In this document: piece by piece, positions 17,334 through 46,811 of the stretch
Numbering within the stretch: the first letter of the stretch is position 1
Layout of the letters: every line of letters starts with the position of its first letter
Assembly (NCBI GenBank): GCA_018662005.1
Contig: JABJHA010000004.1
Location: 186,001-250,000 of the forward strand
Direction: 5' to 3'
Length of the DNA: 64,000 nucleotides
From: Rhodospirillaceae bacterium
GTDB taxonomy: Bacteria; Pseudomonadota; Alphaproteobacteria; Rhodospirillales; JABHCV01
Program-made: the position numbers and the translations under genes
Notes under the pieces: generated by a model
Databases searched by the model: none
What the model was told of the DNA's origin: nothing
The model's input: the letters and a program-made list of their open reading frames with translations, nothing else

Positions 17334-18431
17334 ATGGGGCATGAACAACCAGAATCGAGCCAAAGTGACGTGGTTCGGCCAATTCCAGAGAAAATGATGA
17401 ATTTTGAACGTGGCGCACTCGCCCTCGTCGGGGGCTTTGTATCTGTCTTGATTGCGGCGGCCTGGATCAGCCCGCCAGCAAGCGGCAGTGCTGCGCCGCG
17501 CGCTTCCCTGAACAAGGCTGAGCCGATGATTCTGACCGGCGGCCTGGCACCCGGTGCTGTGACAAGCGAAATCATCAAGCCGCTTGAAGTAAGTCAGGAG
17601 TTAAAGGATTTCGATGTAGCCTCGGGTCCTGTCGCGGCGACCGCGAGAAGTTTGCACACGACCTTTGGCCGTCTTGGCTATCATCTTGACAAGGTCAAGT
17701 CCGGCGATAAACCAGTGCCGCGTGTTTTCCTCGCCACCCTTCCTGAAGACCTGGCCCAGGTGCCCGAGAACAAGCAACGCAAAGCGCTGTTTTTTCAGAC
17801 CATGTTGCCGTTGGTGTTGCAGGTAAACGAAGAGATTCTTGCCGATCGGGCGCGTTTGTGGAAACTGCGCTACAGCACCGGCCTTGGCATAAAGCATAGC
17901 GCCGCCGAGCGTTTGTGGCTTCGGGTGATGACCGAACGCTACGGTGTTAAGGCTGGCGATATTGACGCCTTGATCAGCCGTATCGACATTATCCCGCCAG
18001 CCCTTGCCCTGGCCCAGGCGGCCGAAGAAAGCGGCTGGGGGACGTCACGCTTCGCCAAGGAAGGCAACGCCATTTTCGGTCAGTGGACATTTGCCTCAAG
18101 CACCGGCTTGACCCCGCTTAAGCGCGATCAGGGCAAGAAGCATCAGGTCAAAGCCTTTGATTCGCTGATTGATTCGGTCCGCGCCTATACCATGAATTTA
18201 AACAGTCACCGCGCCTACAAGGGTTTCCGAAACACCCGTCAGGCTATTCGTCGCGCCGGAGCGCCCCTCGACAGCCGGGTGTTGGCCGGCAAGCTGCATA
18301 AATATTCGGAACGCGGTCAGGCTTATGTGGCGGCGTTGCGTAATCTTATTGAATACAACGGCTTAAGCCCCCTCGATGGGGCCCGTCTTGATGACGGCGC
18401 GCCTGACGAAAAAATCGCCTCGGCGATATAA
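17334..18431 (+). CDS. Bax-like N-acetylglucosaminidase domain protein, membrane anchored
   Basis: A 365-residue protein with one N-terminal membrane segment (about residues 28-48, ALALVGGFVSVLIAAAW) and a periplasmic region. The C-terminal half (about 190-345) is a glucosaminidase/Bax domain: PALALAQAAEESGWGTSRFAKEGNAIFGQ contains the likely catalytic Glu, followed by YTMNLNSHRAYKGFR. Family enzymes cut peptidoglycan glycan strands, and the cellular role of Bax proteins is poorly known. The middle region (about 75-185) has no recognised domain. It has its own AT-rich promoter region and is followed by the long inverted-repeat element. An alternative ATG lies at residue 21. Confidence 0.85.
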   Translation: MGHEQPESSQSDVVRPIPEKMMNFERGALALVGGFVSVLIAAAWISPPASGSAAPRASLNKAEPMILTGGLAPGAVTSEIIKPLEVSQELKDFDVASGPVAATARSLHTTFGRLGYHLDKVKSGDKPVPRVFLATLPEDLAQVPENKQRKALFFQTMLPLVLQVNEEILADRARLWKLRYSTGLGIKHSAAERLWLRVMTERYGVKAGDIDALISRIDIIPPALALAQAAEESGWGTSRFAKEGNAIFGQWTFASSTGLTPLKRDQGKKHQVKAFDSLIDSVRAYTMNLNSHRAYKGFRNTRQAIRRAGAPLDSRVLAGKLHKYSERGQAYVAALRNLIEYNGLSPLDGARLDDGAPDEKIASAI

Positions 18432-18440
18432 GAAAACCGC

Positions 18441-18661
18441 CTCATTAAGGTTCAAGCCCCTCAAGCCCCTCAAGCGCCGGGCGGGTTCTCCGAACCCTTG
18501 GCTCGCCGCATAAGCGCCGGCCCGCGGTCGCGGGCTTGGGGAGAAATATTTTCAATGGCGATAGAATATTCTCCTGTCGCTATTTATATTTTGACTTCCA
18601 GAGGCCCAGCCAAGCGAACGGAGTGAGCGCCCGGCGCTTGAGGGGCTTGAACCTTAATGAG
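18441..18661. repeat. Long palindromic intergenic element, copy 1
   Basis: A 221-base element fills the gap between two convergent genes. Its ends are a 34-bp inverted repeat: 18628-18661 is the exact reverse complement of 18441-18483, once a tandem 9-bp duplication (AAGCCCCTC, 18463-18471) in the left arm is discounted. Inside are two smaller hairpins, GGGTTC/GAACCC and GCCCGCG/CGCGGGC. A second, diverged copy of the whole element is found inverted at 46066-46284, also between convergent genes. No open reading frame of note is inside. It resembles a non-autonomous mobile (MITE-like) or REP/BIME-type element and could serve as a two-way transcription terminator. Confidence 0.85.
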
Positions 18662-18670
18662 GGGCTATCA

Positions 18671-19717
18671 CTATTTCTTAAAAAACTGACGTCCGAACCA
18701 GTACCAGCGGTCATTTTTGGCTGGCAGGGTGCAGTTAAACCGGGTGCGACCCCGCGGCAGGGCTTTTTGCATTCTGATTTCAATGCGCGTCTGACCAGCT
18801 TCCCCGGCAAGTCGTGAAACGTCCAGCTTGCCTTCGTGAGAACCGAAACATGATAATCGGTTCAGGCTTTTTGTCAGGGCTTCATCGCCATTGATGGTGA
18901 AACCGAAAGCCGGCGGGTTGTCATCTTCCACATCAATCAACTGATCGTTCGGGGTAACGTCAACGATGTTCAGGGCCAGGGCGTTAGCGGCCAGCTTGAA
19001 GCGTTTCATGTCGCCGTAGGTTTCGTTCAGGGCAAAGCGTGGCAAATAATAAATATCCGGGGTTTTGGCCGCGACTCCCGAATGTTGGCCAAGCCCGGCC
19101 TTAAAGCCGGTTGAGCGGACAAGGTCGATAACACGTTCGCTGGCCTCGCCATAAGGATAGGCGATGAAGGCGGGTTTTGAGCCAAGCTCTTTCTTGAAGC
19201 GGGCGTTGGATTTATCCAGATCGCGGCGATTGGCGAGAACGCTGGAACTGGCCATGTGCAGGTGAGAGGCAGTCTGACTGCCGATACCGGCGCCGTCCTG
19301 TTGCAACTCACGGATTTGATCCCAAGACATATAGCCGCGAATGCCCCGGTCGACAGGATCGGTGGCGACAAACAGCGTAAAGGGAAAACCCAGCGCCTTG
19401 AAGCGCGGCCAGGCTTTCTCGTAAACGGACAAATAGGCATCATCAATGGTGATGGCGACGGCTTTATCGGGAAGTTCTTCGCCATCATGCAGAGCCTTGA
19501 TAATGTCGGCCAGCGCCATCACCTGATAGCCACCGGATTTTAATTCCTCAAGATGAGCCTCAAACTGGGCGATTTTGATGGAGGTTGTCGGGAAATCATC
19601 CTCACCAAAACGGTGATACATAAAGATAACGGCCGAATTGCCGGCATGGGCCGGAAGCGGCACAACGCACAGGCCAAGCACAATGATAAAAAAAACTGAC
19701 AGAATATGTCGCAGCAC
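18671..19717 (-). CDS. Secreted polysaccharide deacetylase family protein (NodB fold)
   Basis: A 348-residue exported protein. The GTG at 19717 is chosen because AAGGGG precedes it by 6 bases and it gives a clean signal peptide ending LPAHA (residue 25). The ATG at 19789 would add 24 residues with no signal-like charge pattern. The NodB motif 1 is ITIDDAY with D92 and D93 present. Motif 2 reads SQTASH, so the first metal-binding His is Gln (Q148) while H152 remains. Motif 3 is AYPYGE. The C-terminal ~110 residues form an unrecognised extension. The likely substrate is an extracytoplasmic glycan or similar ester/amide, and activity is uncertain given the changed ligand. It is divergent from the RutE-like gene. 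Confidence 0.82.
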   Translation of the reverse strand: MLRHILSVFFIIVLGLCVVPLPAHAGNSAVIFMYHRFGEDDFPTTSIKIAQFEAHLEELKSGGYQVMALADIIKALHDGEELPDKAVAITIDDAYLSVYEKAWPRFKALGFPFTLFVATDPVDRGIRGYMSWDQIRELQQDGAGIGSQTASHLHMASSSVLANRRDLDKSNARFKKELGSKPAFIAYPYGEASERVIDLVRSTGFKAGLGQHSGVAAKTPDIYYLPRFALNETYGDMKRFKLAANALALNIVDVTPNDQLIDVEDDNPPAFGFTINGDEALTKSLNRLSCFGSHEGKLDVSRLAGEAGQTRIEIRMQKALPRGRTRFNCTLPAKNDRWYWFGRQFFKK

Positions 19718-19788
19718 ATTAAACCCCTTGATGACACCACATTCTCCACCGTAATGGTTAATGCAAAGCAAATGAAGGACGAAGCCCA

Positions 19789-20373
19789 ATGAAAGCCGAT
19801 GATGCGACCCTCGATTTGTTGTTTAACAAGGCCCGGACAAGAAATGGCTGGACCGACAAGCCATTGCCCGAAGGGATGCTCGAGGATATCTGGAACCTGA
19901 CCCGCATGGCCCCGACCAGCGCCAATTGCTCACCCGCCCGCATTGTTTTTGTGACAAGCGACGAGGCCAAGGAGAAACTGCGACCGGCCCTGATGGACGG
20001 TAATGTGGCCAAGGTGATGGCCGCCCCGGCAACGGCGATCATCGGCTACGATATGGAATTTTATGAACACCTGACGAAACTGTTTCCGCACACGGACGCG
20101 CGCTCCTGGTTTGCCGGGGATGATGAACTGATCCAGACAACGGCGTTTCGCAACGGCACCTTGCAGGGCGGTTATTTTCTGATGGCGGCAAGGGCTCTGG
20201 GGCTTGATTGCGGCCCCATGTCCGGCTTCGATAACGTCATGGTCGATGCGGATTTCTTTGCCGGAACGACGGTTAAATCGAATTTTATCTGTTCCATCGG
20301 CTACGGCAATGATGACCATCTGTACGGGCGCAGCCCCCGCTTCAGTTTTGATGAAGTATGCCGGGTTGAATAA
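19789..20373 (+). CDS. rutE: RutE-like malonic semialdehyde reductase, nitroreductase family
   Basis: A 194-residue FMN-dependent nitroreductase-fold enzyme. It closely follows the RutE/HadB pattern, with [50 protein letters not shown] and [11 protein letters not shown]. RutE reduces malonic semialdehyde to 3-hydroxypropionate in the Rut pyrimidine-degradation pathway. No other rut gene is in this window, so the true substrate here may be a different aldehyde. AAGGAC precedes the ATG. The gene is divergent from the deacetylase and ends 7 bases before the convergent dipeptidase gene. Confidence 0.9.
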
Positions 20374-45463: not shown

Positions 45464-46054
45464 ATGACAATGGCCAAAACACTAAGCCGCGACGATATTA
45501 TAGATATGGACACTTACGCCAGCGAGCGGGCAGAGCGCCGCCGCGCCATCACGGCACTGAAAAAAGATCGCCGCCTTGGCATTGGCCCCGACGCCACCTG
45601 TTATTTTGAAAGCTACGCCACCATGTGGCATCAAATTCACGAGATGCTGTACATTGAGAAGGGCGGCGAAGCGCAGATCGAAGACGAGCTCAACGCCTAC
45701 GCGCCCATGGTGCCAAACGGAAGAGAACTTGTCGTCACCCTGATGTTTGAAATCGATGACCCGGATCGCCGCGCGGCCTTGCTAAACGGGCTTGGCGGGG
45801 TCGAGGAAATGCTCAGCATCGAAGTTGGCGGGGATGTTATCAAGGGCGTCGCCGAAGATGATATCGACCGGACCACCGCCGATGGCAAGGCCTCAGCCAT
45901 CCAGTTTCTGCATTTCCCGTTCAGTGATCAGCAGGTCGCCGACTTTAAAAATAATGAAAACAAAATAATTATTTCCATTGGTCACGAAAAATACGGCCAC
46001 ATGGCGGTCATGCCAACAGCCATGCGCGAAGCTCTTATTAAAGATTTTGATTAA
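45464..46054 (+). CDS. DUF3501 family protein
   Basis: A 196-residue protein that I recognise as DUF3501-like from its context and from RRAITALKKDRRLGIGPDATCYFE, IHEMLYIEKGG and a conserved acidic middle. No catalytic motif is evident and no signal peptide or membrane helix is present. It starts directly after the ferredoxin-CCG stop, so the two are tightly coupled. Function unknown; the association with rubrerythrin suggests a role in peroxide or iron handling. The inverted-repeat element copy 2 begins 12 bases after its stop. Confidence 0.75.
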   Translation: MTMAKTLSRDDIIDMDTYASERAERRRAITALKKDRRLGIGPDATCYFESYATMWHQIHEMLYIEKGGEAQIEDELNAYAPMVPNGRELVVTLMFEIDDPDRRAALLNGLGGVEEMLSIEVGGDVIKGVAEDDIDRTTADGKASAIQFLHFPFSDQQVADFKNNENKIIISIGHEKYGHMAVMPTAMREALIKDFD

Positions 46055-46065
46055 ATCTTTTGCAT

Positions 46066-46284
46066 CTTATTAAGGTTCAAGCCCCTCAGTCGCCGGGCGT
46101 TCGCTCCGCTCTCTTGGCTTAGGCCTCTGGAAGTCAAGTTTCAAATGGCAACAGGAGCTTTATTCGTAATAACCTGGCTCACACACTTTCTTCTACAAGC
46201 CCGTGACTGCAGGCCGCCGCCCCTGCGGCGAGCCAAGGGTTCGGAGAACCCGCCCGGCGCCTGAGGGACCTGAACCTAAATGAG
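46066..46284. repeat. Long palindromic intergenic element, copy 2
   Basis: A 219-base element homologous to 18441-18661 over its full length but in opposite orientation. Its 34-bp ends (46066-46099 and 46251-46284) are inverted repeats with five mismatches. The interior keeps the CCTCTGGAAGTCAA segment and the GAGCCAAGGGTTCGGAGAAC segment found in copy 1, while the AT-rich middle has diverged. As in copy 1, it fills the gap between two convergent genes (DUF3501 and the SH3 protein). It has no open reading frame of note. Confidence 0.85.
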
Positions 46285-46292
46285 GGGTAGAA

Positions 46293-46811
46293 CTATTTCA
46301 GCACTTCGTCCCGGTAGGCGCCCCAGAATTCTACTTTTCTGAGCCAGCCCTTGATGCTTTCCGCCTCGACCCGGCACCAGCCGCCGCCGGTTGGGCATTG
46401 ATCCAGGGTGGCGATGGCACTGGATTCGATCAGCGCCACGGGTGGGCTTTTGGTGTCGGCGCTGCTGCGTAACGAGCGGCGCTTGCCGGTGATGATCACC
46501 GTGCGCTTGCCCGACAGCATAGACTGGTGAACCCAGCCCTGGGTGCTTTGCCAGTCGCGAATTTTGCGCCAGGTGCGATATTCGGCGATGATTTCAACAG
46601 GCAGGTTCTGGCGCTGGTAAACCCATTCTACGGGATACTGGACGCCCGGACCGGTGCGCAGATTGACCTGATCGGCGCGCAGGCTAACGAAGCGGGGTAA
46701 CGGCAGACCGGTTTCATCAGCGAACGCTTGTCCGGCAAAGATAAAAACGGCAGACAAAAGCATCAGTGAAACGCTGCAAACACATAAAAAGCGGGGTAAA
46801 TTGAAGCTCAT
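46293..46811 (-). CDS. Secreted SH3-like domain protein
   Basis: A 172-residue exported protein. The signal peptide is about residues 1-31 (LMLLSAVFIFAGQAFA). A bacterial SH3 domain follows (about 40-100, ADQVNLRTGPGVQYPVEWVY), with a second SH3-like region to the C-terminus (ATLDQCPTGGGWCRVEAESIKGWL). Two Cys in the second region (CPTGGGWC) could form a disulfide. Such domains bind peptidoglycan or act as periplasmic scaffolds. It is divergent from the hydroxyacid dehydrogenase. Confidence 0.88.
   Translation of the reverse strand: MSFNLPRFLCVCSVSLMLLSAVFIFAGQAFADETGLPLPRFVSLRADQVNLRTGPGVQYPVEWVYQRQNLPVEIIAEYRTWRKIRDWQSTQGWVHQSMLSGKRTVIITGKRRSLRSSADTKSPPVALIESSAIATLDQCPTGGGWCRVEAESIKGWLRKVEFWGAYRDEVLK

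Follow-up and report, generated by a model that had tools for sequence, protein, structure and literature searches.

The two homologous elements that lie between convergent genes in the 64-kb stretch of DNA analyzed here (hereafter, the window) belong to a multi-copy, modular family that occupies 22 separate sites in its own genome (G000; 3.5 Mb in 53 contigs, 96.5% complete), as revealed by a similarity search with copy 1 as the query. Both copies are probably REP/BIME-like non-autonomous palindromic repeats that are tolerated, and perhaps used, as a two-sided structure at the 3' ends of genes. This identity had been put forward in a preliminary description of the window, and it is supported by the number of sites, by the modular units and by hairpins with compensatory changes. 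Comparisons of orthologous loci show the family gaining new sites, and alignments of its units show the hairpins staying paired while their letters change. The family is widespread in Alphaproteobacteria and apparently unnamed.

Some of the 22 sites hold extra partial units beside a full one, and others hold partial units only; matches weaker than ~1e-9 (for example C25:42182, 26 bp, E 0.0013) were not counted as sites, and the three-mismatch match C45:21810 was likewise left out. The prospect that these two copies would be the only ones is dispelled by this count, and the 64-kb window itself yielded no full copies beyond copies 1 and 2.

The coordinates first assigned to copies 1 and 2 (Table 1) are borne out, as are their homology and opposite orientation. 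The copies align along their length with few gaps, with a mean column identity of 85% (~10 bp of flank included). In particular, the right arm of copy 1 spans 34 bp and its left arm is identical apart from one extra CCCCTCAAG, a 9-bp tandem duplication, while five mismatches separate the two 34-bp arms of copy 2, both as previously described. The closeness to stop codons also holds, at 9 and 9 bp for copy 1 and 11 and 8 bp for copy 2. Both copies fold much better than shuffled sequences (z of -9.8 for copy 1 and -7.5 for copy 2), none of 200 shuffles being equally good.

Table 1 Features of the two elements and their neighbors in the window (positions in L149, L214 and L156 are those of the respective loci)
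Feature	Position	Strand	Basis
Copy 1, whole element with outer tails	18441..18661	+	sequence, genome search, alignment
Copy 1 core (CCCCTCA...TGAGGGG) of subfamily I, with the A half leading on the + strand	18466..18645	+	
Copy 1 left arm with 9-bp tandem duplication CCCCTCAAG (18457-18465 / 18466-18474)	18441..18483	+	
Copy 1 right arm (34 bp), the left arm's reverse complement	18628..18661	-	
Copy 1 three-hairpin A unit (model R1), 95.8 bits	18466..18538	+	
Copy 1 hairpin 1 (covarying stem, TCCG in loop)	18483..18497	+	
Copy 1 hairpin 2	18504..18519	+	
Copy 1 hairpin 3	18520..18535	+	
Copy 1 terminator-like center: imperfect hairpin (18554-18584) with a T-rich tail (18585-18592)	18554..18592	+	looser scan; unflagged by stricter scan
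Copy 1 inverted ~38-nt B unit	18608..18645	-	
Copy 2, entire element (subfamily II), in inverse orientation to copy 1	46066..46284	-	
Copy 2 core	46083..46268	-	
Copy 2 three-hairpin A unit, 92.9 bits	46196..46268	-	
Copy 2 B unit (reads inward on +)	46083..46119	+	
Copy 1 flanking gene, glucosaminidase domain (start possibly 17334)	17394..18431	+	
Copy 1 flanking gene, polysaccharide deacetylase domain	18671..19789	-	
Copy 2 flanking gene, DUF3501	45464..46054	+	
Copy 2 flanking gene, bacterial SH3 domains (gene finder start: 46763)	46293..46811	-	
rho genes with a unit at the 3' end	L149:1661-2914, L214:239-1492, L156:2140-3393		

The core of the element (CCCCTCA...TGAGGGG, 177–192 bp) is built of two related units, A and B, which stand in inverse orientation on either side of a spacer. 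The A half is a 73-nt unit of three hairpins with the fixed linkers CCCTCAA, CGCCGGGCG and TTGGCT; in this genus it is joined through the central spacer to an inverted ~38-nt copy of its own end, which gives the ~180-bp core. Half units and 38-nt units also occur alone, and mosaic arrays with additional units are found at L003, L007, L015 and L019, such that the family shows the BIME arrangement, in which inverted palindromic units related to each other enclose a spacer and form mosaic arrays. The outer tails are variable and the outer boundary differs between copies. (Some copies, namely L002, L104 and window positions 18441-18465, carry one or two iterations of an outer 19-bp tail, TTAAGGATCAAGCCCCTCA, at either end, in the manner of a small tandem repeat.) A tree of the cores separates two subfamilies, I and II, that are distinguished by the center; copy 1 belongs to subfamily I and copy 2 to subfamily II.

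The statement that the element sits exactly between convergent genes holds for copies 1 and 2, but not genome-wide: flanking genes are convergent at 12 of the 22 sites, co-directional at ten and divergent at none. The suggestion that only convergent 3' ends are tolerated is contradicted by the ten co-directional sites, yet convergent pairs are strongly enriched relative to the gene pairs of the window (6 convergent, 46 co-directional and 7 divergent; 12/22 against 6/59, p = 3e-7). The zero count for divergent pairs is by itself a weak signal (~0.06 by spacer length). A stop codon lies within 50 bp of the element at 21 of the 22 sites, the exception being L028, and no site lies inside a gene beyond an overlap of a few bases. 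The neighboring genes are ordinary ones, AdoHcyase, GAPDH, DnaJ, DapB, FliL and RNase PH among them. The remaining four convergent spacers of the window measure -4 to 37 bp.

Gene contexts were taken from a codon-usage gene finder trained on 32 open reading frames of the window and applied to the other genomes too (it called few or no genes in G002). There, 85 matches in 70 of 74 loci reduced to 71 distinct ones, 13 of which lay at the edge of a contig and 10 at a distance from any called gene; the 48 classified ones comprise 19 convergent, 24 co-directional and 3 divergent contexts and 2 that overlap a predicted gene. The unit shows no strand preference in the co-directional contexts (10 against 14). 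When outward ends are considered, 95 of 125 face a stop codon and 30 face a start codon, and GAGGG stands 5–12 nt before the start codon at eight of those 30, with no case at 0–4 or 13–20 nt; the eight include one orthologous pair (L011 and L101). This placement looks as if the element's end served for ribosome binding or, alternatively, as if only those insertions survived that supplied such a site. The outward GAGGG end lies 7–11 nt ahead of the start codon at L059, L061, L070, L076, L201, L217, L011 and L101. Separately, tRNA genes are found within ~200 bases of a unit at L220:1585-1657 and L063:1232-1305 (~10 bp in L220), and L063, from G053, contains near its units a sequence (about 1365-1450) that resembles a REP of the CGTC type.

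To follow gain and loss, we compared loci with those of a sister species (G001; coding identity 87%, and 68% at four-fold sites, 2538 of 3757, in flanking genes) and of other relatives. The copy 1 site is occupied in the sister species (spacer of 232 bp), while its spacer measures 12 bp in G003, 16 bp in G005 and 83 bp, with a unit-like fragment, in G004. The copy 2 site is empty, with a spacer of 3 bp in G001, 6 bp in G003, 19 bp in G005 and, by match ends, ~8 bp in G002; in G004 it measures 66 bp and holds a unit fragment. The undiverged arms of copy 1 had been read as a sign of recent movement, whereas these comparisons point the opposite way, since it is the site of copy 2, with its diverged arms, that is empty in the sister species. 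That the elements lie flush against both stop codons follows from the shortness of unfilled convergent spacers (only 3–19 bp).

The sites at C4:174990 (L008) and C4:177236 (L023) are also empty in the sister species. At L023, G001 and G005 both have flanking stop codons with a 4-bp overlap, and in G000 GCTTTA borders the insert on either side. Because the unfilled site with overlapping stops is present in both relatives, L023 is a gain with a 6-bp duplication, and it left both reading frames complete (in G004 the neighboring gene is further away). L008, between dnaJ and dapB, is empty in G001 and G002, and could represent either gain or loss because G004 and G005 carry elements there, in the same orientation. 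Target-site duplications, sought at the three polymorphic sites, were GCTTTA at L023, a 5-bp GGGAG at L008 and none that is clear at copy 2, so that only one of the three sites (L023) has a clean duplication. Of note for the reverse comparison, the sister species carries a full copy (G001:C166:1538-1733, L102), and the genes around it are without a match at the corresponding position in G000.

Most sites are shared even where their occupants are not. In the sister species, 16 of the 22 sites are occupied and three are empty, with L006, L007 and L028 in neither count. We tried 13 site pairs and aligned 12 (L011/L101 had no anchor). Seven have the same subfamily and orientation, among them L015 with a different central segment; the other five differ, L003, L017 and L021 in type, and L009 and L016 in both type and orientation. 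Six same-type orthologous cores are 83–93% identical, as compared with 68% at four-fold sites (p from 4e-6 to 3e-15), and three other pairs, with changed centers or types, are 75–79% identical. The central segments of L002, L012 and L014 are 92–96% identical between the species, and those of L001, L010 and L011 diverge at the neutral rate. In the A and B segments, paralogues are about as alike as orthologues. Homogenization among copies could explain the identity of the arms, but the center of L014 would speak against it at that locus: it is 93% identical to its orthologue, which is there at most 70% identical to any other copy in the own genome. Sites also persist between genera. In a comparison that covers five of the ~11 sites found in G005, a member of another genus, three of the five coincide with G000 sites, with matching flanking genes, against a chance expectation that we estimate to be far below one (~3,300 genes, 60 per 64 kb). 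(A unit also lies at the 3' end of rho in G005, G019 and G161, which represent three families of the order; we give this coincidence no weight, because by our estimate about two such cases are expected among ~60 loci from other genomes.)

The family extends well beyond the genus. DNA similarity detected half units or 38-nt units in 16 of 60 genomes of the same family and order, the own genome included. Twenty-seven units, six of them from four other genera, went into a covariance model of the 73-nt unit, which matched 91 of the 218 order genomes sampled (E <= 0.001) and 26 of the 289 class genomes sampled (E <= 0.0001), 24 of the latter from outside the order. Per-genome copy numbers were counted among at most 22 (order) and 17 (class) scored candidates. 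A pattern search for the A half in named genomes matched 11 stretches, from three MAGs only. In genomes other than G000, an extra hairpin of locus-specific sequence often lies directly beside the unit, as at L204, L219, L224, L228, L229, L230 and L231.

Across this range the hairpins remain paired. The stem of hairpin 1, for example, is GGGTTC/GAACCC, GGGGTC/GACCCC or GAGGCC/GGCCTC. Among 27 cores of the genus, hairpin 1 contains 21 double-change cells against 6.1 in shuffles (0/500 as high), though the number of double-changed pairs, 3/6, is ordinary (2.2 in shuffles; 166/500 as high). Covariation within the genus is almost confined to this hairpin, and RNAalifold, given the same 27 cores, instead chose a fold with long arms, for which the covariation term was close to zero. 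When units from the four other genera are added, an alignment of 27 units that was not fitted to structure has 34 double-change cells against 8.1, in 8 of 18 pairs. In an alignment of 49 matches from the order and class that was fitted to structure, there are 184 such cells, compared with 50.4 in shuffles and at most 42 in slid controls, and 15 of 18 pairs have double changes (11.0 in shuffles). G-U pairs are nearly absent, accounting for only 6 paired cells among these 49 matches, which fits a constraint that would act on both strands or on the DNA. Template-switch correction of imperfect palindromes would leave the same mark, namely double Watson–Crick changes with almost no G-U, and the double changes could stem from such correction rather than from selection.

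Two kinds of described repeat come closest. According to Di Nocera et al. 2013 (PMC3733652), GTAG and CGTC REPs form inverted dimers with structured spacers, and REPs are placed between convergent and co-directional genes. The present family resembles the GTAG REP/BIME elements of that account in being made of multi-copy intergenic palindromes, in its inverted pairs with structured spacers and in its convergent and co-directional placement; however, it lacks the GTAG tag, and its unit is a 73-nt array of three hairpins with the ends CCCTCAA and CTTG rather than a single hairpin of 20–40 nt. Unlike RAYT-linked REPs, it resides in a genome without a RAYT. As presented in PMC3733652, a CGTC REP has a CGTC (or TGTC, CCTC) tag beside an 8–9 bp stem that starts with two A-T pairs, a loop of 4–5 and a CCA tail, and the CGTC REPs of Alphaproteobacteria are inverted dimers with no dedicated transposase known. 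Our family shares with these the alphaproteobacterial hosts, the inverted dimers and the want of a known dedicated transposase, but its outer CCTC is a mere variant of that tag, with neither an 8–9 bp stem starting with A-T pairs beside it nor a CCA tail. It also departs from BIMEs proper in that its units are not REPs of a described family and neither described tag is present. Given that both tags are absent, that the unit is larger and that its own genome lacks a RAYT, we class the family as REP/BIME-like and not as a described REP family. A literature search that covered text other than supplements and most subscription journals gave no paper on the repeat among the matches listed, and exact pieces of the sequence went unmatched.

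No enzyme that would mobilize the repeat was identified. We found no match to the RAYT/Y1 transposase (PF01797) in the own genome (96.5% complete), whereas the same search was positive in 5 of 14 well-known genomes, and a RAYT was rejected as the resident mobilizer there. Among 60 relatives, own genome included, Y1 shows no association with the unit (8/23 genomes with the unit, 11/37 without), and none of 30 Y1 loci is flanked by units; G026 alone has a 39-bp unit ~1.1 kb away, in a unit-rich genome. Spread on plasmids or phages was likewise rejected: copy 1 has no match in either, and one pattern has none in viral contigs. A MITE, the alternative also proposed at the outset, would here derive by deletion from a transposon with a DDE transposase that recognizes the inverted ends and makes short target duplications. 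Like the MITEs NEMIS, ERIC and RUP (general traits as given in PMC3733652), the elements are of matching size, have inverted ends (34-bp arms in both copies), lack coding capacity and lie beside genes. Recent gains at copy 2 and L023 favor such an origin, as do the GCTTTA duplication, for which the unfilled site in G001 and G005 fixes the direction as gain, and the GGGAG repeat at L008. Nevertheless, a search for a transposase with matching ends, the check proposed for this idea, came up empty both among the genome matches, where no longer element with the same ends exists, and among the flanking proteins, of which 20, from 14 of the 22 sites, were scanned; 19 of these matched a family and none is a transposase. 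The varying outer boundary and the free-standing half units and 38-nt units also set the family apart from MITEs, and a clean duplication is found once only, being absent at copy 2, with L008 possibly a loss. We therefore consider a MITE quite improbable.

Unlikely, too, is a true two-way intrinsic terminator cassette, although subfamily I lends itself to this interpretation, as does placement between convergent genes. In each of its nine cores, at least one direction shows a 10–15-pair hairpin with a T-rich tail behind it, and in four of them both directions do; over all 27 cores, such sites number nine one way and five the other (one mismatch allowed), against 1.0 per 27 in one-strand mononucleotide shuffles. 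A stricter scan flags L004, and L002 on both strands. But that scan flags nothing inside copy 1 or copy 2; the site of copy 1 is imperfect and runs in one direction, copy 2 has no site in either direction by the looser or the stricter scan, and among the 18 cores of subfamily II, copy 2 included, only L008 has one, elsewhere in the core. Moreover, the three-hairpin unit found across the order has no T tail of its own in a reading of the unit alignments, and known bidirectional terminators, unlike this family, are not repeated mobile sequences. The earlier suggestion of a two-way terminator is thus possible for subfamily I only. A strand-specific non-coding RNA gene would account for the strongly covarying structure, yet is highly improbable: the unit has no preferred strand relative to the upstream gene (again 10 against 14), G-U pairs are nearly absent, and nested and tandem fragments are common. 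Nor is a known RNA family involved, as Rfam 15 gave no gathering-score match in the window and only two tRNAs in 15 loci. A more tenable alternative, which we hold possible but somewhat doubtful, is that the repeat is selfish and inert, with selection only purging insertions in genes and promoters, and with pairing kept by template-switch correction and gene conversion rather than by function. The equal use of both strands at co-directional sites, the scarcity of G-U pairs, the similar likeness of arms between paralogues and orthologues and the almost neutral divergence seen in three of the six same-type central segments are what such a repeat would produce; set against it are the sites that persist across genera, the three centers (L002, L012 and L014) conserved far above the four-fold level, and the 12 of 22 sites in convergent spacers, a tiny target by length.

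Under the REP/BIME-like reading that we prefer, the elements would be spread by an activity supplied in trans, and insertions would survive where neither a gene nor a promoter is broken. The center of subfamily I may terminate transcription. Where a site is fixed, its occupant might be exchanged either by a new insertion or by gene conversion that involves the inverted arms. It is a serious possibility, one that we would place a little short of even, that an inserted element is kept because, in whichever direction it is read, it folds at the 3' ends of the transcripts on both sides and curbs read-through as well as 3' decay. A bolder proposal, which at present we think rather unlikely, is that selection retains a class-wide, hitherto unnamed three-hairpin element at particular gene ends beyond the lifetime of any single copy, with the site stable while its occupant changes in subtype and orientation; the element would then be a portable, two-sided gene-end cassette, with the outward GAGGG doubling as a ribosome-binding site, that acts on both strands or as DNA. 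Such action would explain both the scarce G-U pairs and the absent strand preference.

If our preferred reading is right, a large part of Alphaproteobacteria is spanned by a REP-like family that has neither of the known tags and is not linked to RAYTs, and that provides natural filled and empty sites between close species. It would then become testable whether gene-end repeats are useful or merely tolerated, and what moves REP families that have no dedicated transposase; the conserved sites with changing occupants would, in turn, constitute a test of gene conversion versus repeated insertion.
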